Source of the DNA: a virus
DNA: 47,383 nucleotides
Virus record (IMG/VR): IMGVR_UViG_3300044611_002232
Span: 1 to 47,383 of that record
Reading direction: 5' to 3' (one strand)
Under the pieces are notes generated by a model. The model saw only the letters and a program-made list of their open reading frames with translations. It did not search any database and was not told where the DNA came from. The position numbers and the translations under genes are program-made. Below, piece after piece: positions 17,181-47,383 of this stretch. Within the stretch, counting starts at the first letter, position 1, and the number at the start of each line of letters is the position of its first letter.

Positions 17181-18107
17181 TTATAGATAAGAGTCAAATC
17201 CGTAATCTGGTAGTTTTTGCACAGGAAAGCCGTCGAAGTTGCTAAAAGCGTAAGCCCCGTTTTGAGATAACATACCCTTGGCAACATCTGCTTTGATTAA
17301 AAAAGACCCTTCTGGAATAGGACCCCAATCAGGATGTCCTCCATCGTTCCATTTACCCCAGCTGTTTTGAATTAAAAACACCGGCTCACTACCAGTATCA
17401 TCACAAGCTATCCATGCCATAGCATGAGCCCAGCTACCGCTTACTTTCGCGAATCCCTTCTTGTCTCTGGTGCCACTAAAGCCATAACTGGAGCATACGC
17501 TAATACCATAACCATTGGTTAATGCGTCTCTAGCTTCTTCTACGGTTCTAACGAGAGATACTGTTTTAATTTGATGGTCATTAGCAAGATCTAGTACAGG
17601 ATCGGGTAGGCCTCTACCTCCCCAATTGGCTCCTAACATACCTTGGTACTTAGATAGGTCTACAACCCCTTTATAGTTTTGACGGACTAATATGCCTCCG
17701 TATTTACTCACAAATTCTGCAGCTCTAGCGCAGCTCATTCCTTGGCCACCGTGTCCTCTGGCTCCATAAATACCTTCTGTAGCACCTCTAGCTATCCAGC
17801 TCTCTCTGTCTGAATGAACGTCTATTTCTACCGCTCTGCTAACATCACAAGCGTTTCGTGTTGCATGTGATACGCAATCTCCTGTAACTTGTCTTTCGTT
17901 ATAAGGGTTTTTATCAAACTTTAACACGCTTTTATAAGGTGTTGACAATTGTCCTTTACCAGAGTTTTTAATTTTTTTACTAGCATCTCCAAACAATGGA
18001 TATTTGGAGTTTTCCATCAGGTGATCAAAAATATGAGGCTCCCAAAGGCAACCGCTGTAGCCTTGTCTATAATTATCATATAGTTCTTTAGGAGTAAAGC
18101 GTGGCAT
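17181..18107 (-). CDS. Papain-like (C1 family) cysteine peptidase
   Basis: A complete papain-fold catalytic set is visible: the nucleophile C78 in TGDCVSHA, H228 in GSWAHAMAW, and N248 in LIQNSWGKW. The chain of 308 aa has no signal peptide and no obvious propeptide, so it is probably cytoplasmic or virion-associated. Roles in phages could be virion-protein maturation, entry, or cleavage of host proteins. It overlaps the preceding gene by one base (TAATG) and lies within a cluster of membrane-anchored proteins, which may be its partners. Confidence 0.85.
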   Translation of the reverse strand: MPRFTPKELYDNYRQGYSGCLWEPHIFDHLMENSKYPLFGDASKKIKNSGKGQLSTPYKSVLKFDKNPYNERQVTGDCVSHATRNACDVSRAVEIDVHSDRESWIARGATEGIYGARGHGGQGMSCARAAEFVSKYGGILVRQNYKGVVDLSKYQGMLGANWGGRGLPDPVLDLANDHQIKTVSLVRTVEEARDALTNGYGISVCSSYGFSGTRDKKGFAKVSGSWAHAMAWIACDDTGSEPVFLIQNSWGKWNDGGHPDWGPIPEGSFLIKADVAKGMLSQNGAYAFSNFDGFPVQKLPDYGFDSYL

Positions 18108-19869: not shown

Positions 19870-20838
19870 TTATACTATTCCAAGGATAGACGAGCCGTTG
19901 ATGCCTTTGTCGTAGGCGGTAATCACATTGCCGGTGATCCCGCGTCGGTTGTAAGACGCGCCGCGAAACGTCGCATCGCCATCGACGGTGCCGCCGTCGT
20001 TGACGTACGAACTGTCGTTGAATGTCGCATTGCCATGAACGCGACCGTAGATACTGTCTGACGGCGTGTAGGCGCCGTTGTACGCAGAATCATTAAACGT
20101 CGCATCGCCGTAGACATCGCCGCCGTTGCGCGAACTGTCGTTGAATGTCGCACCGCCGCTGACGAGGTTAAAATTCTGTGAGCTGTCGTTAAACGTCGCG
20201 TTGCCGTTGACGGTGCCTGCGTTGATCGAACTGACATTAAACGTCGCGTCTCCGGTGACGCCGCCAAAATTGAGCGAACCGCCATTGAACGTCGCATCGC
20301 CGGTGACTGTGCCGCCGTAGGTGTTCCACGAACTCTCGCTAAACGTCGCATCGCCGCTGACGTGGCCGTAATTGAACGAAACGTCGTTAAACGTCGCATA
20401 GCCGGTGACGGTGGCGTAATTATACGAAGCGTTGAACGTCGCGTTGCCGTTGACGGTGCCGGAGAATTCGTTGAGCGAACCGCCATTAAACGTCGCATCG
20501 CCGTTGACGGTGCCGTGATTGGACGAAACGTCGTTAAACATCGCATCGCCGGTGATGGTGCCGGTGCTGCCGTTTTCCGTACCCATACTGATCACCGCTT
20601 GGCCGGTGACGGTGATTGCGACCAAGAGAGACACAACCACACCGCCGGGCCGGACGAGCGTCAGGTTCACCACAGTTGGCGCACTGCCGCTGTTGCTCCC
20701 CACGCTGGCACTCAAAACGACACTATCGCTGCTCGTCGGCAGAGCAGACGCCTGCGTGGTGAACGTATCGTCAGTCCACCAGTTGCCGAGCGTAGCCCAG
20801 TTGCCATTGACAGCCGCGTTGAAATAGAGCGTTGCCAT
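19870..20838 (-). CDS. GC-rich repeat protein, probable beta-helix surface protein
   Basis: A 322-aa protein. Residues 1-95 form a non-repeated head (GNWATLGNWWTDDTFTT). Residues 96-305 consist of about 12 tandem units of roughly 16 residues beginning G[D/N]ATFN, with S, N, G and V at fixed positions, as expected for a right-handed parallel beta-helix. The base composition is much richer in G and C than the rest of the window, and third positions are mostly G or C, so it looks acquired from a GC-rich organism; yet it has a phage-style TAGGAG ribosome site and sits between tail-like genes. It may be a tail fibre tip or host-surface-binding protein. The reverse strand is open because of the high GC and is not a gene. 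Confidence 0.75.
   Translation of the reverse strand: MATLYFNAAVNGNWATLGNWWTDDTFTTQASALPTSSDSVVLSASVGSNSGSAPTVVNLTLVRPGGVVVSLLVAITVTGQAVISMGTENGSTGTITGDAMFNDVSSNHGTVNGDATFNGGSLNEFSGTVNGNATFNASYNYATVTGYATFNDVSFNYGHVSGDATFSESSWNTYGGTVTGDATFNGGSLNFGGVTGDATFNVSSINAGTVNGNATFNDSSQNFNLVSGGATFNDSSRNGGDVYGDATFNDSAYNGAYTPSDSIYGRVHGNATFNDSSYVNDGGTVDGDATFRGASYNRRGITGNVITAYDKGINGSSILGIV
19923..20790 (-). repeat. Imperfect tandem repeats encoding ATFN units
   Basis: About twelve degenerate repeats of roughly 48 bases carry a recurring core (in + strand order) of cgttaaacgtcgcatcgcc or close variants. They are diverged at synonymous and non-synonymous sites, which indicates an old protein-level repeat rather than a CRISPR or recent microsatellite. 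Confidence 0.8.
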
Positions 20839-27682: not shown

Positions 27683-28744
27683 CTATTTAGACATACACCC
27701 TTCTATTATATTGGCTGTATTATTCCATGATAGCTTTTGGGCCGTTTTTAGGCCACCAGAATTATTAGTGATTCTATTTTTATAAACAAATCTCATATAG
27801 TCTACGCACTCATCTATTTGAGATTGGCCTATTTTGGCCCAATTCCCCTGTCCAACAAATGCCTTGCCATCATATGCTCGTTCTGTTTCTGTAATATTTA
27901 CCAGATAAGAATTATCTTTATCACAAAATTCGGTGTGGGCAGAGTAGTCGGTTGCTATTACTGGTTTATTCATAGCCATGCATTCTAAAAGTTCGAGATT
28001 CCATCCTTCTGCTCTTGACATAAACACACCACAAGAAGCCTGAGATATAATCTGAGCTATATCCTGCTGGGAATCGACACCGGGAGAAAGTTTTACCCTA
28101 CTGTCAATCAAATATTTATTTTTCCATTCTTTAAGTTGTTCTTCACTAGAATAGTTATTTGTGTGTTCTGACGCTACTATCCATAGTTCAACATCTTCTT
28201 CCGATGGAAAAGCTTTTCTAAATATATCTATAAGTACATCGTGACCTTTTCTAATTTCCCATTTACCAATATTTAAAAAGACATATTTGTTTTGATCTAT
28301 CATAGAATACTGCTCATGATTAAAAGTAGCAACGTCTACTCCTAAAGGAGCCACATTCACTATCGAACAGATACCATTGTTTAGTATTATGTCTTTAGCC
28401 CAATTACTAGATACAAAGAGTTCGTCTGGTACGGATAGGTGTTTTTTTTCTCTTTGATTAAAAGAGTCTAGCTCAAAAAATGGATACGCAAAATATCTTC
28501 CTTTACCAACTCTTTCTGCTAGATCAAACTGATGCCAAATTTTAATAAACGGAGCATGGATGTCGAAATCGTCTTGGTTATTAAGCAGATCTACTACGAA
28601 ATCATAATCTTGCTGTGTATTAACGCTTGGTTGTCCTTTTGGAAAATAATATATTTTATTTTTTCCGGATAGTGCTTTTAGGATATTGAAGGAAGCAAGT
28701 CCATATCCGGTATTATTAATGGGGCCACAAAAATTAATATTCAT
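27683..28744 (-). CDS. Glycosyltransferase, GT4 (GT-B) family
   Basis: A retaining GT4-type glycosyltransferase of 353 aa. The N-terminal half has a MNINFCGPINNTGYGLASFNIL opening, as in this family; the C-terminal half contains NIGKWEIRKGHDVLIDIF and the EX7E motif in AEGWNLELLECMA, followed by KPVIATDYSAHTEF, which binds the nucleotide-sugar. Substrate unknown. It overlaps GMP reductase by one base (TAATG), so both are in one transcription unit with the downstream structural genes. Confidence 0.85.
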   Translation of the reverse strand: MNINFCGPINNTGYGLASFNILKALSGKNKIYYFPKGQPSVNTQQDYDFVVDLLNNQDDFDIHAPFIKIWHQFDLAERVGKGRYFAYPFFELDSFNQREKKHLSVPDELFVSSNWAKDIILNNGICSIVNVAPLGVDVATFNHEQYSMIDQNKYVFLNIGKWEIRKGHDVLIDIFRKAFPSEEDVELWIVASEHTNNYSSEEQLKEWKNKYLIDSRVKLSPGVDSQQDIAQIISQASCGVFMSRAEGWNLELLECMAMNKPVIATDYSAHTEFCDKDNSYLVNITETERAYDGKAFVGQGNWAKIGQSQIDECVDYMRFVYKNRITNNSGGLKTAQKLSWNNTANIIEGCMSK

Positions 28745-29874
28745 TAAACACCTAGACGCGGGTTGTTGTTATTATGTATTTGGCTCACTTTACAAAACTG
28801 ACTACATTTAGCCATATGTTTAACGTGAGCCGCTCCTATATAACAGCAACAGGAACGGATGCCCCCCAATAATTCTTGGATAATTTTATCCATAGGCCCC
28901 TTGTAAGGTACGGTGATTTTAGTTCCTTCACTAGCTCTATATTCTTTGATATTATCTTCATATTTTTCTTGAGCATGGTGGGTGCTCATTCCGTAGTATG
29001 TGAATTCGGTTTTTCTTTTTGTGGTCGAATATCCAGGATCATATGGCTGCCACCACTCCGAATTATGAGATTGGCACAAATACTCAGTTTTCCACTCCCC
29101 ATCACAAGGCTCGGATCCTGCGAAATATCCGCCGAGCATTACAAAATCACTTCCTGCACACAGGGCTTTGCAAACGTCTCCAACCGTTTTGTGTCCACCA
29201 TCAGAGCAGATTAGGCCTAGTTTTTTATGTCCATTTTGAAGGCCGTGTGCTACATAGGCATTGTCTAAACAACAGCTCAACTGAGGCACCCCACAACCTG
29301 TAAGAAAGCGAGTAGTACACGCGCTTCCTCCACCAATACCACACTTTACAATATCGACGCCTCCATAAATTAATAGTTCTTGAGTAGACGAGGTATTAGT
29401 AACATTCCCAGCAATAATAATGGATTCTGGGAAATGATCTCTAACTCTCCTACAGTATTTAACAAAAACATCCATATGTCCATTTGGAACGTCTATACAA
29501 ATATTTGGCTGCTTTCCTAGTTTTTCTTTAAGCTCTAGCAAATGATTTAAGTCGCTTTTTTTATAGCCTATTGATACGAATGTATAGTCTATATTTTCTG
29601 GGTGTTTTTGAAAATAATCCGAAAGCTGTTCAACAGTATGGTATTTGTGTAAACATGCTATCATTTTATGCTTAGCTAGTGCTGTCGCCATCTCAAAACT
29701 ACAAAAGCTCATATTGGCGCACATAATTGGGATACCGGTCCAACTTCTTGGAGAATGATAAAAACTAAACGTGCGTTCTAGCTCTATATCTGATCTACTA
29801 GTAAGAGTGGAGCGTTGAGGAACTATTAATACGTCATTAAAGTCTAATTTTGATTCATTGATAATTTTTTGCAT
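28744..29874 (-). CDS. guaC: GMP reductase
   Basis: A TIM-barrel enzyme of the IMPDH/GMPR family, identified as GMP reductase rather than IMPDH by the lack of CBS domains, the catalytic loop GIGGGSACTTR with C186 at the standard GMPR position, LSDG-like SDGGHKTVGDVCKALCAG, and DFVMLGGYFAG. It converts GMP to IMP using NADPH. Length 376 aa is slightly longer than E. coli GuaC (347), with a cysteine-rich C-terminal extension. In an AT-rich phage it could shift purines from G toward A. It is coupled to the upstream 81-aa-frame gene and the downstream GT. Confidence 0.88.
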   Translation of the reverse strand: MQKIINESKLDFNDVLIVPQRSTLTSRSDIELERTFSFYHSPRSWTGIPIMCANMSFCSFEMATALAKHKMIACLHKYHTVEQLSDYFQKHPENIDYTFVSIGYKKSDLNHLLELKEKLGKQPNICIDVPNGHMDVFVKYCRRVRDHFPESIIIAGNVTNTSSTQELLIYGGVDIVKCGIGGGSACTTRFLTGCGVPQLSCCLDNAYVAHGLQNGHKKLGLICSDGGHKTVGDVCKALCAGSDFVMLGGYFAGSEPCDGEWKTEYLCQSHNSEWWQPYDPGYSTTKRKTEFTYYGMSTHHAQEKYEDNIKEYRASEGTKITVPYKGPMDKIIQELLGGIRSCCCYIGAAHVKHMAKCSQFCKVSQIHNNNNPRLGV

Positions 29875-32991: not shown

Positions 32992-34074
32992 CTATATATC
33001 TATATTAAGAGCTGCTCCTATTACCTGATGCATGTCATAATACCTGTACTCTGCCAGTCTGCCTCCAAAAATATATTTCATTTGTGTCTTGGAAAGATTT
33101 TTGTACTTATTACAAGTAATATTATTGATCTCGTCATTGATTGGATAATACGGTTCATTGGAGTGATCATATTGTTGAGAATATTCTTTTGTAACAACTG
33201 TATTGCCCGATCCATTATTTGGTATAAAGTGTTTATGTTCTATGATTCTAGTATACGGTGTTGCGCTATCTGTAAAATTAACTTGTGCCAACCCTTGAAA
33301 ATTTGAACAGTCTAATAATGATTCTTCGAAACGAAGACTGCGATAGTCTAATTTACCAAATTCATAATCGTAAAATCTGTCAATTGGGCCAGTATAAATA
33401 ATTCTAGAGGCTATAGACTCCCAATAATCTCGTTTATCAAAAAAATCCGTTTCTAGCTCTACCACAGAACCATCAATCATTCTAGATATCATTTTAGTAT
33501 AGCCATCAATAGGTATACCTTGATAGATATCGTTAAAATAATTGTCATCATATGTAAATCGAACAGGCAGTCTTTTAATAATAGAGGCTGGCAGCTCTTT
33601 TGGGTCTTTTTGCCATTGCTTAATAGTATAGTTCTTAATCAATTTATGATATATATCATATCCTACTAAAGACAGAGCTTGTTCTTCAAGATTGCTTGGT
33701 TTATCTCGAAACTTTTGTTTATTAATAATACTTAAGGCTTCTTCTGGTGTTCTAACGCCCCAAAATTGATAAAAAGTCCACATATTAAAAGGTAAGGAAT
33801 ATAAATTATTATTATAATTAGCAATAACTTTGTGTCTATAATTATTAAATTCTGTAAATTGATTAACAAATTTCCATATTTTTTCGCTTGAGGTATGAAA
33901 GATGTGAGGCCCATATTTATGGATATCTATACCATCTTTTTTTTCCGTATAAACATTTCCACCGATATGTTTTCTTTTATCTATTATTAGAACGCTTTTT
34001 CCATGATCAAGACATTTTCTGGCTATAGTAGCCCCATATAATCCGCATCCAACTATTAAATAATCGTATTTCAT
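32992..34074 (-). CDS. glf: UDP-galactopyranose mutase
   Basis: A flavoenzyme converting UDP-galactopyranose to UDP-galactofuranose. Visible features are the FAD-binding GCGLYGATIA near residue 9, IIDKRKHIGGNVY at 30-42, the HKYGPHIFHT loop at 52-61, and QWQKDPKELPASIIKRLPVRFTYDDNYF in the substrate region. At 360 aa it is the usual length. It implies that this phage makes Galf-containing glycans or diverts host sugars. Neighbouring glycosyltransferases may use the product. Confidence 0.92.
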   Translation of the reverse strand: MKYDYLIVGCGLYGATIARKCLDHGKSVLIIDKRKHIGGNVYTEKKDGIDIHKYGPHIFHTSSEKIWKFVNQFTEFNNYRHKVIANYNNNLYSLPFNMWTFYQFWGVRTPEEALSIINKQKFRDKPSNLEEQALSLVGYDIYHKLIKNYTIKQWQKDPKELPASIIKRLPVRFTYDDNYFNDIYQGIPIDGYTKMISRMIDGSVVELETDFFDKRDYWESIASRIIYTGPIDRFYDYEFGKLDYRSLRFEESLLDCSNFQGLAQVNFTDSATPYTRIIEHKHFIPNNGSGNTVVTKEYSQQYDHSNEPYYPINDEINNITCNKYKNLSKTQMKYIFGGRLAEYRYYDMHQVIGAALNIDI

Positions 34075-36438: not shown

Positions 36439-38112
36439 ATGAGTTCAGATAAGACAACTATTGTTACTGGTATATGGGATCTTGGTAGAGGAGATATAAG
36501 CGATGGTGGATTAGGGGACGGGGTTTGGAGAAGAGGTTTTGATCACTATATAACACAATTTAAGAACCTACTTTCTGCTACAAAAAACACAAATCTAATT
36601 ATTTTCATAGACCCATCAATAGAACATATAGTATGGGAAATAAGAGAAAAGTCTAATACTGCCGTATATTATCATACAAAGGATGACTTTAAGGGGAATT
36701 TTTTCCCTTTTTTCGATCAAGTGCAAGATATTAGAACAAATGAGAGATGGTTATCTCAAAACGGATGGATAAGAGATAGTACTCAAGCTCAAATGCCTTA
36801 TTATAATCCTATGGTTATGAGCAAGATGTTCTTATTGAATAATGCTAGAATATACAATCCTTTTAATTCAGAATATATGTTTTGGTTAGATGGGGGCATT
36901 ACCAATACAGTACATCCTGGTTATTTTAGTCATGACAATGTTATAGAAAAAATAGAAAAAATAGTCTCTAAATTCCTTTTTGTCTGTTTTCCATATGATA
37001 GTACTACAGATATTCATGGTTTTTATTTAGACGATATGAAAAAATTCGCTCATAGCGAAGAAGTTAATCGGGTTGCTCGCGGAGGTTTTTTTGGAGGAAA
37101 AGTAGATTACATAGGCAAAGCTAACGAAGTTTATTATGGCCTATTAGATTCATCTTTAAGATCAGGATGTATGGGTACAGAAGAAAGCATTTTTACCTTA
37201 ATGACATATCTTGACAATGATTTCGAGTTTGAATCAATCAATAATGATGGGCTTGTGTCTACTTTTTTTGAGAATGTTAAAAACGGAAATACAAAGCTTC
37301 AACCATTAACCAAAATAAAACAGTATACCAAAGACAATATACAGTTATATATTAATGCTTTTAATTCTCCTGATCAATTACAAATGGTGCTAGACTCTTT
37401 TGAAAAATATGACAAAAACTTTTTAGACAAAACAGAAAAAATATTAATTAATAATAGTACTAAAGATAGCTTATTTGAAAAATATGATGAGATTAGAGCG
37501 AGATATGGCTTTTCTGAAATTAGAGAAGGCAATCTAGGAGTTTGCGGAGCGAGACAAAGAGCCGCTGGCCTGTTTAAAGAATCCGGATCAAAATATATGT
37601 TCTTTTTTGAGGACGATATGTTGTTGGATTTAGCTGCCGGGGCCAGGTGTCCTTTTGGATTTAATAAACAAATACCAGATTTTTTTAATTGGATTGTTAA
37701 GCTTATGGACAAAGAATCTTATGATTTTATTAAGTTTAGCTTTAGTGAATTTTATGGACACAACGGAGACCAATGGAGCTGGCATAACGTTCCTGAACCA
37801 AGAAAAACAGAATTTTTTGGCAAAGTACACAATAGACCACCTACAAAATTTAAAAATATAAAATCTTTAGACGGTAATCCATATGCTGACGGTGAGGTTT
37901 ACTACTCTAATTGGCCTCATATTATAGGTCAAGAAGGCAATCAAAAACTATTTTTAGATACAACATGGAATCATCCGTTTGAGCAAACATGGATGAGTCA
38001 TATATATAGTCTTACAAGAGAAGATAAAGTTAATCCAGCTATTCTATTAGCTAGTCCAATCACACATAACAGAGTACATTTTTATGAAGGCCAAGAAAGA
38101 AAAGAAAATTAA
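36439..38112 (+). CDS. Two-domain glycosyltransferase, WlaTC/HtrL-like N-terminus
   Basis: A 557-aa protein. Residues 1-280 resemble the WlaTC/HtrL (YibB) family: TGIWDLGRGDISDGG at 10-24, YYHTKDDFKG near 76, YNPMVMSKMFLL and FWLDGGI. From about residue 295 a second GT-A-like domain carries KILINNSTKDSLFEKYDEIRARYG-- and FFFEDDML with a DD acidic motif. Fused transferases are common in phage glycan operons. No ribosome site is strong. It is the first gene of the rightward operon. Confidence 0.78.
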   Translation: MSSDKTTIVTGIWDLGRGDISDGGLGDGVWRRGFDHYITQFKNLLSATKNTNLIIFIDPSIEHIVWEIREKSNTAVYYHTKDDFKGNFFPFFDQVQDIRTNERWLSQNGWIRDSTQAQMPYYNPMVMSKMFLLNNARIYNPFNSEYMFWLDGGITNTVHPGYFSHDNVIEKIEKIVSKFLFVCFPYDSTTDIHGFYLDDMKKFAHSEEVNRVARGGFFGGKVDYIGKANEVYYGLLDSSLRSGCMGTEESIFTLMTYLDNDFEFESINNDGLVSTFFENVKNGNTKLQPLTKIKQYTKDNIQLYINAFNSPDQLQMVLDSFEKYDKNFLDKTEKILINNSTKDSLFEKYDEIRARYGFSEIREGNLGVCGARQRAAGLFKESGSKYMFFFEDDMLLDLAAGARCPFGFNKQIPDFFNWIVKLMDKESYDFIKFSFSEFYGHNGDQWSWHNVPEPRKTEFFGKVHNRPPTKFKNIKSLDGNPYADGEVYYSNWPHIIGQEGNQKLFLDTTWNHPFEQTWMSHIYSLTREDKVNPAILLASPITHNRVHFYEGQERKEN

Positions 38113-39382
38113 AACCTCCTCAACTAAGCCGGAAACCATATTTGTTCAAATAGCTGCCTATAGAGATCCACAGCTAGTGCCAACTCTGAAAGACATGTTG
38201 TCTAAAGCTAAGTATCCAGACAATATCAGGATAGGAATAGCTTGGCAGCATTCTTCTGATGATGCTTGGGACTCTTTGGATGAGTTTAAGGACGATCCAA
38301 GATTTAGGATAAAGGATATTAATTATCTTGAATCTAAGGGAGTTTGCTGGGCAAGAAACTTAGTACAGTCTCTATACGATGGAGAAACTTACACCCTGCA
38401 ACTAGACTCTCATCATAGATTTGTGGAAAACTGGGATGCTATCCTAATAGATATGCTAAAAGGACTACAGCAGTCCGGGCATCCAAAACCCCTAATAACC
38501 AGTTATATACCAAGTTTTGATCCCGACAACGATCCAGCCGGAAGGGTTAACGAGCCATGGAAAATGAATTTTGATAGATTTATTCCAGAGGGCGCCGTCT
38601 TCTTTCTTCCTGCATCATTCGATTCCTGGGATGATAAAAGCAGGCCGTTACCAGCTAGATTTTATAGCGCTCACTTTGCTTTTAGCTTAGGTTCTTTTGC
38701 CACAGAAGTAAAACACGATCCTAACTATTATTTTCATGGAGAAGAAATAAGCATAGCTGTTAGAGCATATACTCATGGTTATGACCTATTCCATCCTAAT
38801 GTGATGGTTTGTTGGCATGAATATACTCGTAAGGGAAGAACAAAGCAATGGGATGACGATAAAATTTGGGTACAGAGAAATAACAATTCGCATTTAAGAA
38901 ACCGTAAACTTTTTGGGATGGATGGAGAGGTTCAGGATATAGATTTTGGAGAATATGGTTTTGGCAATCAAAGAACATTAAGAGATTATGAAAAGTATTC
39001 TGGTTTGTGTTTCTCAAAAAGAGCCGTTACTCAATATGTGTTAGATCATAAGGCCCCTCCAGATCCTAGTCAAAATAGTGATGATGCAACCTTTGAAGCT
39101 TCATTACTCAGTATTTTTAAGCATTGTATAGATATAGGATTTGCTCAAGTTCCCGAAAATGATTATGACTTTTGGGCTGTTGCTTTTAAAGATAAAGAAG
39201 GTAACGACGTATACAGGAAAGATGCTGATGCCAACGAGATACTTTCTATGAAAAATGATCCTGACGGATATTGTAAAGTATGGAGAGAGTTTCAAACTAT
39301 GATAAAGCCCTATAGCTGGATAGTATGGCCCCATAGTATTAGTAAGGGATGGGCTGATCCTATAACAGGTATTCTGCCCTAA
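38084..39382 (+). CDS. GT60-like GlcNAc transferase
   Basis: A 432-aa glycosyltransferase with IFVQIAAYRDPQLVPTLKDML near residue 20, GIAWQHSSDDAW, GVCWARNLVQSLYDGE and YTLQLDSHHRFVENWD at about residue 99-114, whose DSH replaces the usual DxD. This is the GT60 polypeptide alpha-GlcNAc-transferase pattern, also found in viruses. It overlaps the preceding gene by 29 bases in a different frame. Confidence 0.82.
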   Translation: MKAKKEKKIKTSSTKPETIFVQIAAYRDPQLVPTLKDMLSKAKYPDNIRIGIAWQHSSDDAWDSLDEFKDDPRFRIKDINYLESKGVCWARNLVQSLYDGETYTLQLDSHHRFVENWDAILIDMLKGLQQSGHPKPLITSYIPSFDPDNDPAGRVNEPWKMNFDRFIPEGAVFFLPASFDSWDDKSRPLPARFYSAHFAFSLGSFATEVKHDPNYYFHGEEISIAVRAYTHGYDLFHPNVMVCWHEYTRKGRTKQWDDDKIWVQRNNNSHLRNRKLFGMDGEVQDIDFGEYGFGNQRTLRDYEKYSGLCFSKRAVTQYVLDHKAPPDPSQNSDDATFEASLLSIFKHCIDIGFAQVPENDYDFWAVAFKDKEGNDVYRKDADANEILSMKNDPDGYCKVWREFQTMIKPYSWIVWPHSISKGWADPITGILP

Positions 39383-39388
39383 AACATC

Positions 39389-39775
39389 ATGATAATCGAT
39401 ATAGTACCAAATCATCCCAAATATTTTTCTTTTATTAGGCAATTGCGTTTGGATTCAGAAAATATAGATGGTTTTATACAACAACAAGATTTTAGCGAGG
39501 CCGATCACCTTAAATACATGGATGAATTTGGTAATAATTACTATATAGCCCTAATTGATAATGTTCCTGTTGGCTGGGTTGGTAGCGTGAACAATGATAT
39601 AAGAATAGCCGTTCACCCCAAATATAAAAATATTGGAGTAGGCAAGGCATTAATAAGCTTCATAAATAAAGAATACCCAAGAGCTTATGCAAAAATAAAA
39701 ACTAATAATATAGCTAGTATCAAGTTATTTGAGAGTTGTGGTTTTAAACAAACTTTTATAGTGATGGAAAAATAA
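39389..39775 (+). CDS. GNAT family acetyltransferase
   Basis: A 128-aa GNAT fold with YYIALIDNVPVGWVGSVNND strands and the acetyl-CoA loop VHPKYKNIGVGKALISFI (R/Q-x-x-G-x-G/A type). It ends IASIKLFESCGFKQTFIVMEK. It probably acetylates an amino-sugar made together with the following aminotransferase. The stop overlaps the next ATG (TAATG). Confidence 0.82.
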   Translation: MIIDIVPNHPKYFSFIRQLRLDSENIDGFIQQQDFSEADHLKYMDEFGNNYYIALIDNVPVGWVGSVNNDIRIAVHPKYKNIGVGKALISFINKEYPRAYAKIKTNNIASIKLFESCGFKQTFIVMEK

Positions 39776-40413
39776 TGTACCATAAAATTAAATATAATCC
39801 ATTTAACATAGTAAGGGCATTCGAAGAAGAGGTGTCTTTATATACCGGCTCTAGGTACGCAGTCGCCGTAGATAGCTGTACCAATGCTATTTTTTTAACG
39901 TGTAAATATCTAGGAGTTAAAGAGGTAACTATCCCAGCGAAAACCTACCTATCTGTACCTCAATCTATTATACACGCTGGTGGAGAGGTAGTATTTGACA
40001 AAACAGAACAGGCTAATAGCTGGAGAGGCATTTATCAATTAAAACCATATCCTATATATGATGCGGCTAAAAGATTTAGACATAATATGTATATTCCAGG
40101 ATCGTATATGTGTTTATCTTTTCATATAAAAAAGCACTTAAAGATCAGCAAAGGAGGCATGGTTTTAACGGATGATGATAAGGCGTATGAATGGCTTAAG
40201 CAGGCTAGATATGAAGGCAGGCATGAGGTATATTATAAAGATGATGATATTGATATGCTTGGATGGAATATGTATATGACGCCACAACAAGCCGCGCACG
40301 GATTAGCTTTGATGCAGAATATGCCATTGGACAATCCTGATTTAGATGAAAATAATGGATATAGGGATTTGACAGAATTTTCTGTTTTTAAGCAAAATAA
40401 GGTCGTGGGATAA
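39775..40413 (+). CDS. Half-length DegT/DnrJ/EryC1 aminotransferase
   Basis: A 212-aa PLP-fold fragment. YAVAVDSCTNAIFL and TIPAKTYLSVPQSIIHAGG match the sugar-aminotransferase N-terminus; YDAAKRFRHN holds the pyridine-nitrogen D96, and SFHIKKHLKISKGGMV holds the likely PLP lysine K120. Usual family length is 360-400 aa, so the C-terminal domain is missing and the normal dimer interface would change. It follows GNAT with a one-base overlap and precedes a GT with TAATG, so the frame is maintained and not a decayed remnant. Confidence 0.72.
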   Translation: MYHKIKYNPFNIVRAFEEEVSLYTGSRYAVAVDSCTNAIFLTCKYLGVKEVTIPAKTYLSVPQSIIHAGGEVVFDKTEQANSWRGIYQLKPYPIYDAAKRFRHNMYIPGSYMCLSFHIKKHLKISKGGMVLTDDDKAYEWLKQARYEGRHEVYYKDDDIDMLGWNMYMTPQQAAHGLALMQNMPLDNPDLDENNGYRDLTEFSVFKQNKVVG

Positions 40414-41180
40414 TGAAAATTTGCTTTGCTCTCGACTGTCATTATCCAAACTATGTCAATATGCTAAAAAAGGGCATTCTAAAACAATTTATTGACTTTG
40501 ATTTACAGTCTGATAATATAGCTTTTTTTATCTCAACTAACGCGCCAGAGCTGCTTAAAGACTATGCAAATATACGAAATATTCATGTCTATGATATTGA
40601 ACGGCTAAGAGTAAATAACGAATGTTCGAAAGAGCACGAGATATTACCTATCGATCCAACGGGCATCTACCCAGGTAGATTTCCTTGGAATCTAGAAAGA
40701 TTTATTATTAAAGAAGCAGCTCTTAATAATTATGATCATATTATTAGTCTGGACTCGGATGTTAGAATAACTGCTCCAGATAGAAACTCGTTTTTAAGTG
40801 ATATGATGTCGTCTTTTGAAAATAATAATTCTATCATTACTAATCAAGCTATATTTCAATATAAAGATAAATCACCAGGAGAGGTCTTCGAACTACATCA
40901 TAAATATATTGAGCACTTTAAGTTAAATTATTCTGATGATAAATATAATTCTATGGATGGTCCAGTAATCGTGTATAATAGCGTAGATGCTAAAGCTATA
41001 CTAGAATATATTGATATTTGGAATGATTTCACAGATTTTGGATACAAGAGAGATTATGGTTTTGGTTATGGAGGAGTAGTCTGCGGTAATTGGTCTTTAT
41101 CACTAGCTGTCTCTGGTTTTGAACTAAAACATAAATCTTTACCTCTTGTTCCTTTTCATGATTATGCTGCGAGATATTGA
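40413..41180 (+). CDS. GT-A type glycosyltransferase-like protein
   Basis: A 255-aa protein with HIISLDSDVRITAP (DSD, metal binding) and FGYGGVVCGNWSLSLAVSGFEL, in the arrangement of small GT-A enzymes. The N-terminus MKICFALDCHYPNYVNMLKKG and the later GRFPWNLERFIIKEAAL are consistent. The donor sugar is unknown. It is coupled with the preceding gene. Confidence 0.72.
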   Translation: MKICFALDCHYPNYVNMLKKGILKQFIDFDLQSDNIAFFISTNAPELLKDYANIRNIHVYDIERLRVNNECSKEHEILPIDPTGIYPGRFPWNLERFIIKEAALNNYDHIISLDSDVRITAPDRNSFLSDMMSSFENNNSIITNQAIFQYKDKSPGEVFELHHKYIEHFKLNYSDDKYNSMDGPVIVYNSVDAKAILEYIDIWNDFTDFGYKRDYGFGYGGVVCGNWSLSLAVSGFELKHKSLPLVPFHDYAARY

Positions 41181-41182
41181 AA

Positions 41183-42742
41183 ATGTTTACTATAAAACAA
41201 ATACCATTAGCAGATCATGGGTATTATATCAATTTGGATTCCTCTGTTGAGAGAAAAGACTCTATGGAATCCTTGATTTCGCAGTTTGATATTACCGGCG
41301 TAACCAGATTTTCTGCCTTAACGGATCCTCTCAGACAAGCCTCATGCACCAAAAGTCATCAAGAAGTATTTAGAGATGCGATATCTAAAAATTATGAAAC
41401 CATATGTGTCTTAGAGGATGATATAAATATTTATGATAGGTGTAGATATGTAGGTTCTATATCAACAGATTTATTTTTATATTTATCAGAACTTAAAAAA
41501 ACATTAGATCAAACGGAATGGGATCTGGTGGCTCTTGGTATTAACCCTAACAAAAAACTTATTCCTGTTAATTCTTACTTAGCTATTAACAGTGGAAGCA
41601 CAGGTTCTTGGGCCTATCTTATAAAAAAAAGAGCTTATGAATATATATTAAATAGTTTTAATTATAATAGGGACTATTTAGCTATAGACAATATTATTCC
41701 TCTTATTAACACAAAAGGGTTTAAGTCTTATGCTACTATGCCGATGGTTATTCATCATAAGGATGGTTTCTTATCCGACATGGCCCCTCATGTCGGAAGA
41801 ACATTCTATTCTGGCTGGATAGATGGTTCTTGGTATGGCAATTTATATGAGCCTTATAATCTAGTGAATAGCGATAATATAGAAGACCTATCTAATAAGC
41901 TATTACTAAATTCTTCTATAGAAAGAAAACTAACCATAGTTATAGCCGGACACTTTTGTGAAAATTTTCTATTTTATCTAAAATATTTATTTAAAAGTTT
42001 AAATTCTAAATTATTAAATTGTAGATTTATCGTTGTTTACGATCAAGCCAATGCTACATATGAAGACAAACTGCAGTTGCAATATTATTTTAAAGATTTT
42101 AGAGATGTAAATGTAGAAATATGTTATTCAAACTATGGTTTAATTAGTTCTATATCGACAGCTTTACCTCTAATAAAAACTGAGTATTTCTTATTTCTTG
42201 AGCATGATTGGATTTTCTTAGACCCCAATAGCATAGACTTTAATAATTTAATAAATGCTTTTGATTCTTATAATTTTATTCATTCTGTATGGTTTAACAA
42301 GGACGATAATCAACTCAAAGGTTTTGAAATAGGCGCGGATGTGACCGGGAGGGAAACTCCTTATGGTCCGGAAGATAGAGTGAATGGAATAAATCTAACA
42401 ACCACAATCAGATGGTCAAATAATCCAGCTGTCCATAGAACCGCTAAATATAAAGAACTATTTTATAAATATGTTGCAAATCAACACATGGATTCAGTCC
42501 ATCAAGGATCTAATAATGTTGAAGAAGCCCTGATAGACAATTACCGTAAAGAGGTATTGTCCCATCATTGGGAAGAGATTAGGGATTCATGGGGCACTTT
42601 TCTGTATGGAAAAATAGGGGAAGGTCCTTTTGTGGGACATTTAGACGCTTCCAAGAGATATCAGGTAGGAATTAACAGAACAATGGCAGAAGATAATGCT
42701 GATTTATATATTAAAAATAATCCTCTATTAAATAATGAGTAA
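41183..42742 (+). CDS. Two-domain glycosyltransferase with GT25 N-terminus
   Basis: A 519-aa protein (start chosen at ATG 41183; TTG at 41177 lies in the previous stop). Residues about 10-200 match the LPS GT25 family: YYINLDSSVERKDSMESL and ICVLEDDINIYD with an EDD motif. Residues from about 250 form a second transferase-like domain (FLFLEHDWIFLDP with HDW as the acidic motif). It is followed after 3 bases by another GT25, so the two may build successive linkages. Confidence 0.78.
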   Translation: MFTIKQIPLADHGYYINLDSSVERKDSMESLISQFDITGVTRFSALTDPLRQASCTKSHQEVFRDAISKNYETICVLEDDINIYDRCRYVGSISTDLFLYLSELKKTLDQTEWDLVALGINPNKKLIPVNSYLAINSGSTGSWAYLIKKRAYEYILNSFNYNRDYLAIDNIIPLINTKGFKSYATMPMVIHHKDGFLSDMAPHVGRTFYSGWIDGSWYGNLYEPYNLVNSDNIEDLSNKLLLNSSIERKLTIVIAGHFCENFLFYLKYLFKSLNSKLLNCRFIVVYDQANATYEDKLQLQYYFKDFRDVNVEICYSNYGLISSISTALPLIKTEYFLFLEHDWIFLDPNSIDFNNLINAFDSYNFIHSVWFNKDDNQLKGFEIGADVTGRETPYGPEDRVNGINLTTTIRWSNNPAVHRTAKYKELFYKYVANQHMDSVHQGSNNVEEALIDNYRKEVLSHHWEEIRDSWGTFLYGKIGEGPFVGHLDASKRYQVGINRTMAEDNADLYIKNNPLLNNE

Positions 42743-42745
42743 ATC

Positions 42746-43393
42746 ATGGCTCATAATTTGCTTAAACATATCTATTATATTAATTTAGACCATAGGACAG
42801 ACAGAAAAGAACAAATAGAAGCAGAGCTTATTAGAATGGGATTGAAGGGGACAAGATTCCCCGGCACTATATACTGCGCAACAGAACCAGACAGGTTTAA
42901 TAATAAAAATATCTATAATCCTAATGCCATAGGTTGTCATATATCTCATTTAAACCTAATAAAATTAGCCAGAGATAAAAAGCTATCGAACATACTCATA
43001 TTAGAAGATGATTTTCAGTTTATTGTTAATAAAGAAGAGCTAGAATTTCAAATTACAGCTTTTAATAATCTAAATATTGAATACAATGTGGTGTTTTTAG
43101 GATATAACGTAAAAGAATCAGAACCATTTAATGATCTGATAAGTTATGGTAGATCGGTGCAGACTGCAAGTGGTTATGTTGTCAATCAAAACTTTTATGA
43201 TATATTAATAGAAAACCTAGAAACAAATCTAGAGCAACATATAAGAACACAGCAGTCTTGGGCCTATTGTAGTGATCAATGTTGGAAATCTTTACAAAAA
43301 GAACACAATTTCTTTTATTTCAATACTAGAATTGGACAACAAAGAATGAGCTATAGCGATATTGAAAACGCGGTAGTATGCTACGGCGTTTAG
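42746..43393 (+). CDS. GT25 family glycosyltransferase
   Basis: A 215-aa single-domain GT25 (LPS glycosyltransferase) protein: HIYYINLDHRTDRKEQIEAEL at the start, AIGCHISHLNLIKLARDK, and ILILEDDFQFI with the EDD motif. Length is normal. Its N-terminal half resembles that of the adjacent two-domain protein, suggesting duplication. Confidence 0.85.
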   Translation: MAHNLLKHIYYINLDHRTDRKEQIEAELIRMGLKGTRFPGTIYCATEPDRFNNKNIYNPNAIGCHISHLNLIKLARDKKLSNILILEDDFQFIVNKEELEFQITAFNNLNIEYNVVFLGYNVKESEPFNDLISYGRSVQTASGYVVNQNFYDILIENLETNLEQHIRTQQSWAYCSDQCWKSLQKEHNFFYFNTRIGQQRMSYSDIENAVVCYGV

Positions 43394-43405
43394 TTATATA
43401 CAAAT

Positions 43406-44071
43406 ATGGAAATATATAACCCTAATCAACAATTGTTTTGTGAACTAGAAAATTTTCTGAGATATTTCTATAGAGAAATAGAAACGCCCATAGCCATTAT
43501 GCATCATCGTGCGGATATCGATAGACCTCAAATACTTTATAATACCGAGCAGTTAACGCGACCAGATCTATATAGCACTATCAATAATTATCAACATAAA
43601 AATATTTTAGAAATTTGGGATTATAGCTTAGTAAATATTAAAATTTTAAACTCGGCCGGTATCTATAATACTAAATATGTTCCATTAAAAATTTGGCCTG
43701 AATATCAGACAAAACTACAACAATATTGTGAAAATTCATCTTTTGAGTTCGATATTGGTTTTTGTGGATGGGTTTATGGTGACCATAGAGTTAAAATACT
43801 AAATTCTATTAAACAATTAACTAATATTAGCATAGATATAATAGACGGTCTTTATGGAGACGATAGGGATCAAAGACTAGCTAGATGTCGGATGATACTT
43901 AATATTCATTTTAACGAAAACTATAAAATATTTGAACAATATCGTTGTTTTGCTTGGCTAGACATAGGAAAAGTAGTATTATCAGAAAACAGTCTGGATA
44001 ATGACCCCAGATGTATCAATGTATCATATGATGAAATTGTACCAACACTAATGAAAGTTTTAAATAAATGA
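43406..44071 (+). CDS. Glycosyltransferase-like protein, GT-B C-terminal type
   Basis: A 221-aa protein with ILYNTEQLTRP and NILEIWDYSLVNIKIL in the N-terminal half and DIGFCGWVYGDHRVKIL, then GLYGDDRDQRLARCRMILNIHF and FEQYRCFAWLDIGKVVLSE in the C-terminal half. These are the sugar-nucleotide blocks of CgeB-like GT-B transferases. The chain is short for a two-domain enzyme. It follows GT25 by 12 bases. Confidence 0.7.
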   Translation: MEIYNPNQQLFCELENFLRYFYREIETPIAIMHHRADIDRPQILYNTEQLTRPDLYSTINNYQHKNILEIWDYSLVNIKILNSAGIYNTKYVPLKIWPEYQTKLQQYCENSSFEFDIGFCGWVYGDHRVKILNSIKQLTNISIDIIDGLYGDDRDQRLARCRMILNIHFNENYKIFEQYRCFAWLDIGKVVLSENSLDNDPRCINVSYDEIVPTLMKVLNK

Positions 44072-44700
44072 TTTCTTTTGCCACGGCTGATTTACTCTTA
44101 AAAAGACCAAATACTACGGTTGATGCTAGTATTATTTCTAGAGATCAGATAAGATATCTACTAGCTTTATTAGAGTCTACTATAGACTCAAAGATAGAGG
44201 GAGATGTCGTAGAATTTGGCTGTTTTGTCGGGGAATCATCTAAGTATTTTAGAATGATGCTGGATACAAAACTTTCTTCTAAGCAACTATACGTATATGA
44301 TTCATTTGAGGGGCTTCCTGAACTTGGAGAATATGAGAAGAATACTGGTTGGAGAGCAGGAACCCTAAAGACCACAGAAGATATATTAAAACAAAATTTT
44401 AATCAAAATGGACTACTTCCGCCGAATATAACAAAAGGATGGTTTTGCGATGTACCAGAAAACAAGATTCCGGATAAGATAAGCTTTGCTTTCCTAGATG
44501 GTGATTTTTACCAAAGTATTTATGATAGTTTCTCTAAAATTTATTCTAGACTTTCTATCGGCTCTGTGGTAGTATTTCATGATTATGAGAGACCAGATTT
44601 ACCAGGAGTCAAAGCTGCTGTGGAAGATATTTTGCAAGACAGGCCTAACAAGATCCTATTTAAAATTTTTGATCAATTAGGAGTTTATATTCATGTCTAA
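44068..44700 (+). CDS. TylF-like O-methyltransferase
   Basis: A 210-aa class I methyltransferase of the TylF/MycF macrocin O-methyltransferase type: DVVEFGCFVGESSKYF (46-61), LYVYDSFEGLPELGE (74-88), and FAFLDGDFYQSIYDSF for metal binding, followed by VVVFHDYERPDLPGVKAAV. It probably methylates a sugar hydroxyl in the glycan built by this operon. It overlaps its neighbours by 4-8 bases. Confidence 0.82.
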   Translation: MISFATADLLLKRPNTTVDASIISRDQIRYLLALLESTIDSKIEGDVVEFGCFVGESSKYFRMMLDTKLSSKQLYVYDSFEGLPELGEYEKNTGWRAGTLKTTEDILKQNFNQNGLLPPNITKGWFCDVPENKIPDKISFAFLDGDFYQSIYDSFSKIYSRLSIGSVVVFHDYERPDLPGVKAAVEDILQDRPNKILFKIFDQLGVYIHV

Positions 44701-45106
44701 GATATTTATTGCTTTTATATTGATTCTTTTTTGTTGTTTGGGTAGTACTACCAATGCTCAGGGTATCCAGCTCAGTCCACAAAATACGGGATTTAATTTA
44801 GACTATCTCATAGGAACTTATGGAGTGGGGACAGCGGCATCTACTGGTAACTTCGGACAGGCTGCCTTGATAGATAGTCAAGGTAATTTTTTATTAAAAC
44901 AATCTCAGGCTAATATGAATAATCAAATAGCTTATGAACACTCTTTACGGAACGATTCATTAAAAACAGAAACCTATTTTGGTAAAAGACAAACTAATGG
45001 GTTTTATAGACATTTAGAAGAATGGCAGTCTAAAACCAAAGTTAAACTTAAGAGAGAGCACGGAGAATTAACAAGAGAGGATATTAGGTATTTATACGGA
45101 AGATAA
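44693..45106 (+). CDS. Secreted small protein
   Basis: A 137-aa protein with a classical signal peptide (MSKIFIAFILILFCCLGSTTNAQG, probable cleavage after NAQ or AQG), then a glycine/asparagine-rich region and a helical tail NQIAYEHSLRNDSLKTETYFGKRQ. The tail style recalls planctomycete exported proteins, an observation made from memory. It is the last gene of the rightward operon. Function unknown. Confidence 0.6.
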   Translation: MSKIFIAFILILFCCLGSTTNAQGIQLSPQNTGFNLDYLIGTYGVGTAASTGNFGQAALIDSQGNFLLKQSQANMNNQIAYEHSLRNDSLKTETYFGKRQTNGFYRHLEEWQSKTKVKLKREHGELTREDIRYLYGR

Positions 45107-45111
45107 TACCT
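45086..45111. terminator. Possible bidirectional stem-loop between convergent genes
   Basis: AGGTATT (45086-45092) pairs with AATACCT (45105-45111) around a 12-base loop, spanning the stops of the convergent secreted protein and subtilase genes. There is no T-run on either side, so it is only a weak terminator candidate. Confidence 0.25.
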
Positions 45112-46049
45112 TATAGGACCGGATACATAATTCCGAAACCCTCGTACCGCCTCTGACCTCTGTATAATGGATTGGACAGTTGCCTAGCCTTTGTTTTAAA
45201 TATTTTGATATAGTCATCCACCGTTTTTAACATATTCTCCCTAGCAGAATATTTTATTTGTCTAACATGGCTTAGCAGCAGAGATGCGCACCCAACAGCA
45301 AATGGATTGCTCATACTAGTGCCGCTCATAAGAGCATAACTATTACCTGGGACACAGCTAAGAATATTGTGGCCCGGGGCTAGAAAATCCAGGGTTTCTC
45401 CGCTGCATGTAAAATCTGTTCTTTCTAAATTTTCATCAATCGCCCCTATACTAATAGTATGATCATATTTTGCAGGATACATGATGTCTACTGCTGGGCC
45501 GGAATTACCGGCGGCACAGAAAATCACACAACCCTTTGAGGCCGCATAATTAACAGCTGCTTCTAATTGTTTTGATCTAGCGGGTGATCCTAATGACATC
45601 GTTATTAAATCTGCTTTAGCGTCTGCTGCCCATACAATAGCTTTAACGACATTATCTAGATCACCAGATCCGTCATCCCCCAGAGCTTTTATGGGCATTA
45701 TTTTGGTTTTTGGTGCCACCCCAACCATACCTAGAGTATTATCTTCTGCTGCTATTGTACCGCAAACATGGGTTCCATGACCGTTTCTATCCATAGGGTC
45801 TTGATTTAGTTCTACAAAATTTTTACCTTGAATAATATTATTCTTTAAGTCAGGATGGTTAAAGTCGCACCCAGTATCTATTACTGCTACAACGACCCCT
45901 TCTCCCTTAGAATGCTTCCATTGTTTTTCTATATCGAATTTTTTGATCTCCCAACCAGAAAACTGAGCGATTGTTGGAGATAGACCATGAACATCTTCTC
46001 TGATATATGGTAATAAACCTATATTATTTTTAGATCTTCTGTTTTTCAT
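45111..46049 (-). CDS. Subtilisin-like serine peptidase (S8)
   Basis: A 312-aa subtilase with the complete catalytic triad: D58 in VAVIDTGCDF, H91 in RNGHGTHVCG, and S245 in MSGTSMSNP, plus the oxyanion N182 in CAAGNSG. There is only a short lead (about 45 residues) and no signal peptide, so the enzyme is probably intracellular or virion-borne. Several cysteines occur in place of usual residues (C61, C96, C174, C178). It overlaps the trypsin-like lipoprotein stop as ATGA, so both are co-translated. Confidence 0.9.
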   Translation of the reverse strand: MKNRRSKNNIGLLPYIREDVHGLSPTIAQFSGWEIKKFDIEKQWKHSKGEGVVVAVIDTGCDFNHPDLKNNIIQGKNFVELNQDPMDRNGHGTHVCGTIAAEDNTLGMVGVAPKTKIMPIKALGDDGSGDLDNVVKAIVWAADAKADLITMSLGSPARSKQLEAAVNYAASKGCVIFCAAGNSGPAVDIMYPAKYDHTISIGAIDENLERTDFTCSGETLDFLAPGHNILSCVPGNSYALMSGTSMSNPFAVGCASLLLSHVRQIKYSARENMLKTVDDYIKIFKTKARQLSNPLYRGQRRYEGFGIMYPVL

Positions 46050-46801
46050 TTGTTATTATTCTCTAATTTAGAAATAGTATCGTTTAGCCAATCAATATGA
46101 TCGCTAATTCTTGTATGACCACTTAAACTTCCGTATTCTGAATTTGAGCTTTTACCAAATCCTATAACACAAGAATGAATACCCGCAAGCCTATTATCAA
46201 TAAATAAACCCCCACCACTATCTCCACTAGCTATTAAAAATTCTAGTGTGGTTTTTCTTTCTCCTCCGGGACTACATATTAATAGACCCCTATCAACAGC
46301 ATCTATTATATTCGATCCAGCTCTTTGCTTAGAATCATCCTTCACGGCACCTGTTGAAAAATCGCCGGTCATCCCATATCCAGAAAGAGAGCATATTTTT
46401 TTAATTTCGTTTTTTTCTGCATATAAATTAGGATACCATTTCAAACCCATAGAGTCGCTGGTTCGAGCAACTGCTATATCATAATATCCAAAATTTCTAG
46501 TTTCATATTTTTCGTGCTTAATAATTTTGTTAAGCTTTAATACTTTATTATTAATTTTTATATAGCATTCTTTGCTTTTATCTACAACATGTGCTGCGGT
46601 GATAATAATATTATCTTTATGAGCTACGGCAGAAGCGGAGAATGGTTTATCTTCTGTGTCGGTTCCTGTTATTTTAGCTACAAAAGGAAATCCTTGAGCA
46701 TATTCAATATAGGCATCACTATGGTTGTTTGGGTCAATAGTCCCGCCCAAACAAGCGTTTAACAAAAAGCAAGCAAAAATTAAGCCAAGAATTGCTTTCA
46801 T
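46046..46801 (-). CDS. Trypsin-like serine protease lipoprotein (S1)
   Basis: A 251-aa chymotrypsin-fold peptidase with H71 in ITAAHVV, D108 in YYDIAVAR, and S195 in ASGDSGGGL. The N-terminus MKAILGLIFACFLLNAC is a lipoprotein signal with lipobox LNAC, so C17 would be lipidated and the enzyme anchored on an envelope membrane, facing outside. It is coupled to the subtilase and begins inside the end of the HNH gene (68-base overlap). A GGTGTATTTAG element is 53 bases upstream. A lipid-anchored protease is rare in phages. Confidence 0.88.
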   Translation of the reverse strand: MKAILGLIFACFLLNACLGGTIDPNNHSDAYIEYAQGFPFVAKITGTDTEDKPFSASAVAHKDNIIITAAHVVDKSKECYIKINNKVLKLNKIIKHEKYETRNFGYYDIAVARTSDSMGLKWYPNLYAEKNEIKKICSLSGYGMTGDFSTGAVKDDSKQRAGSNIIDAVDRGLLICSPGGERKTTLEFLIASGDSGGGLFIDNRLAGIHSCVIGFGKSSNSEYGSLSGHTRISDHIDWLNDTISKLENNNK

Positions 46802-47111
46802 TGGATTGAACCTTTATTTTATAAGGTCGATTTTGTACCTTATCTAAATACACCTTTGTGTCTTCTAATACGTTCATATTCCAGCTGCTATAATCCATTA
46901 AATGACCAAAAATCAAATGGCATGACGAACATAATGTGGCCAGATTTGAAGGGTCTAGCTCTCTTGACGGATTAACATGAAAAGGCTCTATATGATGGAC
47001 TTGAAGATTTTTTGTGGACCCACATGCAATACATTTTGGATTTAATTTAATATGTTGCGATCTTACAGTACTCCATTTAGGAGATCTAAGAGAAAAAATA
47101 TTAAAAAACAT
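46734..47111 (-). CDS. HNH endonuclease
   Basis: A 125-aa HNH nuclease from ATG 47111 (a longer frame to 47156 begins inside foreign GC-rich sequence). Motifs: KCIACGSTKNLQVHHIEPFHVNP (C27, C30, H39, H40), LDPSNLATLC (N56, C61), SSCHLIFGH (C64). The double cysteine pairs carry zinc and the HH/N motif is catalytic. The C-terminal basic tail may bind DNA. Being single and next to the sequence junction, it may be a mobile homing-type gene. Confidence 0.83.
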   Translation of the reverse strand: MFFNIFSLRSPKWSTVRSQHIKLNPKCIACGSTKNLQVHHIEPFHVNPSRELDPSNLATLCSSCHLIFGHLMDYSSWNMNVLEDTKVYLDKVQNRPYKIKVQSNESNSWLNFCLLFVKRLFGRDY

Positions 47112-47124
47112 ATATATTTTTATC

Positions 47125-47241
47125 CTAATTAAATGTGATCTGGTCGCCGTCTTCACTGACGATGCACGGCCGCACTTCGTCCAGCGTGTAGCCGCGCTGG
47201 CGGCAGCGGGCGGCTAAGTGTTCTTTGGGGCAAGTAATCAT
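47125..47241 (-). pseudogene. Truncated planctomycete-type protein at the junction
   Basis: From ATG 47241 the frame begins MITCPKEHLAARCRQRGYTL and runs DEVRPCIVSEDGDQIT before reading into the AT-rich phage sequence and stopping (FN, then stop). I recall MITCPKEHLAARCRQRGYTL-DEV-PC-V-- from planctomycete phage-related proteins that continue well past this point. The break at about 47135-47141 therefore cuts the gene. It is translationally coupled to the upstream fragment (ATGA). Confidence 0.6.
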
Positions 47242-47383
47242 GGCAAAAGATTTGGAACGCACTGCCCATCCACGCACTCGCACCCTTCGGGGCACGGGTT
47301 CGACTGTTTCTCTGGCGGGCACTCAAGCCCGAGTGCTTGCGAAGTGGAAACAACCATACCGCAGCCAAACTGCCATAAGGGAT
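47238..47383 (-). CDS. C-terminal fragment of a cysteine-rich protein, GC-rich DNA
   Basis: An open frame enters from the right edge and ends at 47238, giving about 48 residues. The end reads QALGLECPPEKQSNPCPEGC, then ECVDGQCVPNLLP. The CPEGCxCVDGxCVP pattern occurs at the end of planctomycete phage-like proteins. The stop overlaps the next ATG (ATGA). This DNA is much richer in G and C than the phage. Confidence 0.5.
   Translation of the reverse strand, partial: PLWQFGCGMVVSTSQALGLECPPEKQSNPCPEGCECVDGQCVPNLLP

Follow-up and report, generated by a model that had tools for sequence, protein, structure and literature searches.

An overlapping S1 and S8 serine protease gene pair in an uncultivated large phage, and its linkage in relatives to genes for membrane and actin-like proteins

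The window, which is the whole stretch of DNA analyzed here, is a 47,383-bp IMG/VR virus record from an uncultivated large phage. Much of the window outside the region described below carries replication, RNR, RecA, and PhoH-like genes. Near its end lie two protease ORFs, an S8 subtilase and an S1 protease. The ORF coordinates and the shared ATGA given for them in a preliminary description of this DNA were borne out by the sequence, and both ORFs are on the minus strand. The features of the region are listed in Table 1. The small protein convergent with S8 adjoins it in a subset of relatives. A glycosyltransferase-like gene block occupies positions 36439-45106 on the opposite (plus) strand, between S8 and genes at 35.6-36.0 kb. 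This block looks like an insertion of varying content, because S8 and the 35.6-36.0 kb genes directly adjoin in three related loci (L006, L009, and L010).

Table 1. Features of the S1-S8 region of the window.
Feature	Position	Strand	Support
S8 subtilase, ISP type, 312 aa	45111..46049	-	Pfam Peptidase_S8 E 3.3e-52; family profile; AF2 pLDDT 95.1
S1 chymotrypsin-fold serine protease, predicted exported, 251 aa	46046..46801	-	Pfam Trypsin E 2.8e-14; AF2 pLDDT 92.5; Foldseek
ATGA overlap, S1 stop and S8 start	46046..46049	-	Sequence; -119..+7 nt overlaps/gaps in 46 related clusters
S1 signal peptide, about residues 1-19, before conserved GTIDP	46745..46801	-	Hydrophobic N-terminus in all but few of 108
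S1 catalytic His71	46589..46591	-	108/108
S1 catalytic Asp108	46478..46480	-	108/108
S1 catalytic Ser195	46217..46219	-	108/108
LLPY, residues 12-15 of S8 N-terminal propeptide; equivalent of inhibitory LIPY/F	46005..46016	-	L[LF]P[YHF] 79/79
S8 catalytic Asp58	45876..45878	-	79/79 unique relatives
S8 catalytic His91	45777..45779	-	79/79 unique relatives
S8 catalytic Ser245	45315..45317	-	78/79 unique relatives, remaining one a gap
Small HNH protein; start set by homologues; upstream of S1 in most relatives	46734..47111	-	Pfam HNH E 2.8e-9
Small exported protein (predicted), convergent with S8, no known family	44693..45106	+	37-44% identical proteins at same place; 27 family matches
Foreign GC-rich record end; actin-like gene expected there	47135..47383	.	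97% identity to contig L162

Alignment scans gave 190 S8 matches and 329 S1 matches, the latter being IMG/VR stretches, and the top 80 of each set were taken for study. When the S1 protein alone served as the query, no relative was found. The relatives were clustered at 90% identity, with 58 S8 clusters having enough flanking sequence. Because the relatives were ranked by similarity, the frequencies given below describe the near family; the best-80 lists favor close relatives, and common ancestry explains part of the synteny. At the search sensitivity applied, 50,697 phage records contained no match to the S1 family. Going by its sequence matches, the family is common in uncultivated phages.

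In 46 of the 58 S8 clusters the S1 gene immediately precedes S8; it lies elsewhere in eight and is absent from four (best 80 of 190 matches). The preliminary description had proposed that the two enzymes are made together and that the pair be sought in other phages. The frequency of the pair, with frames that mostly overlap or abut, supports joint production well. S8 is absent from 18 of 74 S1 clusters. Since S8 is missing from many S1 loci and S1 from some S8 loci, neither protease needs the other.

The claim that both triads are intact holds across the two families. The S1 triad (H71/D108/S195) is invariant in 108 unique sequences. The S8 triad (D58/H91/S245, with oxyanion N182) is also intact, the Asp, His, and oxyanion Asn being conserved in all 79 unique sequences and the Ser in 78.

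The S1 model has a double-barrel chymotrypsin fold, with Foldseek matches to chymase, elastase, and trypsin. The likeness to these S1A proteases lies in the fold and triad, while identity to them is 14-20%. The residue at the base of the S1 pocket reads as hydrophobic and not Asp, so the enzyme is probably not Arg/Lys-specific. C137 and C176 are conserved, and a putative disulfide between them was considered. The N-terminal pattern of the family is that of an ordinary short signal peptide ending in A, S, or G before GTIDP. S1 had been described as an envelope lipoprotein. The lipoprotein assignment was rejected, as the LNAC of the window is not a strict lipobox and a strict one ([LVI][ASTVI][GAS]C) occurs in 5 of 108 relatives. 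A position on or beyond the membrane is still suggested by the signal peptide and by the natural S1-TM fusions described below. Of the combination regarded beforehand as fatal to the description, a failed signal or lipobox prediction together with inactive triads, only the failed lipobox was found; the signal peptide is present and the triads are intact.

The S8 enzyme is, on its sequence and predicted structure, a relative of the intracellular subtilisins (ISPs). A profile of 53 S8 relatives gave its best PDB scores with 7xr8 and 7y6m, both intracellular serine proteases, and Foldseek on the S8 model returned subtilisins, the B. clausii ISP precursor among them. The protein starts with MKNRRSKNNIGLLPYIREDV, and this N-terminus (MKNRRSKNNIGLLPY..) has a short propeptide and no hydrophobic leader. 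S8 had been correctly described as lacking a signal peptide, an absence explained by its being a zymogen of ISP type whose inhibitory propeptide is LIPY-like. The label of an exported-type pair was wrong for S8, which is of an intracellular type.

In solved ISPs, the LIPY/F propeptide blocks the active site, and mutating the motif relieves inhibition (PMC6220982). The LLPY of the phage family profile aligns with the LIPF/LIPY of 7xr8 and 7y6m. In the single-chain AF2 model, the block of residues 11-20 has a mean pLDDT of 96, and the secondary structure has a strand at 9-12 together with strands at 128-130 and 153-155, both of which are substrate-binding edges. The propeptide strand would thus lie across the active site, with a predicted pairing as in the blocked cleft of ISPs. 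Given its ISP features, S8 is probably a latent cytosolic protease, that is, a self-blocked zymogen. The loop after GNxG, in the calcium region, has a four-residue gap relative to both 7xr8 and 7y6m. Because this loop is shortened, ISP-style calcium activation may not apply, and a calcium-gated S8, which was considered, is weakened accordingly.

Activation of S8 by a trypsin-type cleavage by S1 was rejected as unsupported, given the hydrophobic pocket base and the different compartments of the two enzymes. S8 scored 200.5 bits with the T7SS mycosin model (TIGR03921), below the cut-off of 278.75, and 28 bits with the IetAS protease model (IteS), below the cut-off of 900.

The phage S8 shares with the ISPs of Bacillus clausii (2X8J/2WV7) and Planococcus (6F9M) the subtilase core, the DTGC motif, the lack of a signal peptide, and a short N-terminal propeptide with a LIPY-type motif predicted to sit in the cleft. 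It differs in having LLPY, LLPH, or LFPY in place of LIPY/F, in its shorter calcium-region loop, in being phage-encoded, and in its coupling to S1. Subtilases are likewise phage-encoded in cultured Bacillus and Moorella phages (BSP12, the Goe series, FADO, and MTATph1), with at most 48% identity to the S8 of the window. The BSP12 subtilase has VIPH at the position equivalent to LLPY, an ISP-like start in a cultured phage; those of FADO and MTATph1 have no LIPY-type motif by eye. No S1 partner is annotated beside the subtilase in the three cultured phages inspected.

Among the 58 S8 clusters, an actin-like gene is present in 44, a gene for a one-TM protein (TM) in 42, and an HNH gene in 37. Most often the genes run TM-actin-HNH-S1-S8 and follow rIIB and RuvB, which are upstream in most relatives. 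Other orders are S1-TM-actin-S8, actin-S8-S1, and S1-S8-TM-actin-S1, and in some loci the S1-S8 pair is kilobases away from TM-actin. Across many gene orders the four genes S1, S8, TM, and actin keep together, and TM (or an S1-TM fusion) immediately precedes actin in 63 of 66 loci. In three loci (L007:10283-10930, L038:10994-11662, and L055:11021-11686), a second S1 paralogue that keeps the triad and has no signal peptide directly follows the actin-like gene. Downstream of S8, one locus (L008:10316-14155) encodes a 1279-aa RCC1-repeat protein.

The TM protein has a length of about 105 aa, a single TM, and a conserved tail (SIDxxKxVxxIxTDxLEKKYxxLG...KLKNMK). A K/R excess follows the TM in 54 of 61 of these proteins, as in the positive-inside rule. 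Seven contigs (L066, L070, L073, L082, L083, L084, and L089) carry an S1 ORF of 382 aa fused to the TM protein. The three distinct fusions tested contain the whole TM protein at their end (TM profile E 2e-34 to 4e-33). Their layout is a signal peptide, S1, TM, and the conserved inner tail. Given the S1 signal peptide and the positive residues after the TM, S1 outside and the tail inside is the natural topology.

The actin-like protein of the relatives belongs to the Volactin family (PF25216, E 7e-59); that of L005 scores 200 bits against a cut-off of 35. Whereas a member of this family adjoins the protease pair in relatives, the chromosomal Volactins of Planctomycetota have other neighbors, among which neither S1 nor a TM partner was found. 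Neither the TM tail nor the proteases turned up at the host-chromosome actin loci that were searched for them. A coiled-coil-like neighbor is common to 10 of 20 chromosomal Volactin loci of Planctomycetota (L280-L291). The actin is also carried by two large uncultured phages, of 485 and 595 kb, where no S1, S8, or TM gene lies within 9 kb of it.

Evidence for the TM and actin genes comes solely from relatives; the window is cut off at the place where they are expected. They are missing because the sequence from 47135 is a GC-rich stretch. All related loci part from the window at this same base, and the 249 bp beyond it match another phage contig (L162) that is itself 57-70% G+C. The join is either an assembly chimera or an inserted gene. 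Another contig that also has S1-S8 (L163) contains a related GC-rich gene within AT-rich DNA, so insertion at 47135 is possible.

The presence of the pair in a conserved gene group with membrane and actin-like proteins makes one proteolytic system probable, not two stray enzymes. Tentatively, we read the pair as part of a phage proteolytic module acting on both sides of the host inner membrane, a reading favored by the order-independent association and the S1-TM fusion. Its more specific form, a transmembrane protease-cytoskeleton machine with an outer S1, a one-TM adaptor to an actin-like filament, and an autoinhibited S8 as the cytosolic arm, is possible but doubtful. S1 would be exported through its signal peptide and retained on the outer side of the inner membrane, either by itself or via the one-TM partner. 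The conserved cytosolic tail of this partner would meet the Volactin-family filament inside, a contact suggested by the tail and the adjacent gene, though actin binding is a guess from gene order. S8, translated from the overlapping frame, would stay in the cytosol as a latent zymogen with the propeptide across its own active site, and would act after propeptide removal, probably late or at envelope breach. Between them, the two enzymes would digest envelope and cytosolic proteins of the host, or of a rival phage, in the course of infection. Surface receptors, host defense proteins, and competing phage proteins are the candidate targets named in the preliminary description. A physical complex, the actin binding, the timing, the substrates, and the benefit of the module are what we infer, and its job may be takeover, superinfection exclusion, or lysis. 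The signal-less S1 paralogue in three lineages misfits a purely outside role and speaks against the module, as do the loci with only one of the two proteases and those in which TM-actin is kilobases from the pair. The parts are of known kinds and the combination appears new; no paper describing an S1-S8-TM-actin module was found in the literature. If the reading is true, the coupling of an actin-like protein to proteases on either side of a membrane would be without precedent in phages, and the S1-TM fusions found in nature allow an immediate test of the idea.

The alternative that survives best, although somewhat unlikely, is that HNH-S1-S8 is a mobile "moron" cassette, with S1 at the envelope and S8 in the cytosol acting separately and TM-actin nearby by common descent only. 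HNH is a typical mobile-element gene, the presence of S8 varies among loci, and several kb separate HNH-S1-S8 from TM-actin in seven locus groups, while in nine the stretch examined has HNH-S1-S8 without TM-actin. Such a cassette is hard to reconcile with the S1-TM fusions and with the S1-TM-actin-S8 and actin-S8-S1 orders, which have no HNH.

Superinfection exclusion or surface shaving, in which S1 cuts receptors or incoming phage parts at the envelope and S8 degrades injected proteins as a fallback, agrees with the S1 signal peptide and the rIIB neighborhood. An adjoining rIIB is no proof of exclusion, and this explanation is improbable. Less credible still is a phage-borne anti-phage or suicide module like the ATPase and S8 systems (IetAS), with the actin-like ATPase-fold protein controlling a latent subtilase. 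The S8 zymogen does adjoin an ATPase-fold protein in relatives, but the weak match to IteS, the S8 subunit model, is far under its cut-off, and no IetA-like AAA partner turned up. That one or both enzymes cut structural proteins in capsid or tail maturation is very improbable: phages do use proteases in capsid maturation and the window holds a ClpP-like relative of head-maturation enzymes, but S1 has a signal peptide, the neighbors are rIIB, RuvB, and actin and not structural genes, and the prohead protease role seems already filled.

The preliminary description counted four protease families in the window. S1, S8, and the ClpP-like enzyme stand, and kinship of the last with phage head-maturation proteases is supported. 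The papain-like ORF (17181-18107) has no match in Pfam, PHROG, or NCBIfam and was a motif reading only. The ClpP-like enzyme is probably an ordinary prohead protease, so the count of four adds little. Elsewhere, the window carries IMP dehydrogenase/GMP reductase-like and UDP-galactopyranose mutase genes (28744-29874 and 32992-34074), here found in a phage, and a GDATFN-type repeat protein (19870-20838) in a stretch with raised G+C.

Only a hint of the host was obtained, and it points to Planctomycetota. The S1 relatives on genome contigs are mostly in Planctomycetota MAGs. Volactin genes over the cut-off were found in 75 of 199 Planctomycetota genomes; for two other phyla the counts were 16 of 200 and 1 of 198, with one match in each being the phage contig itself. 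Two S1-S8 phage contigs (L242 and L243) are binned in an alphaproteobacterial and a Flavobacteriales MAG and are probably misbinned phage.
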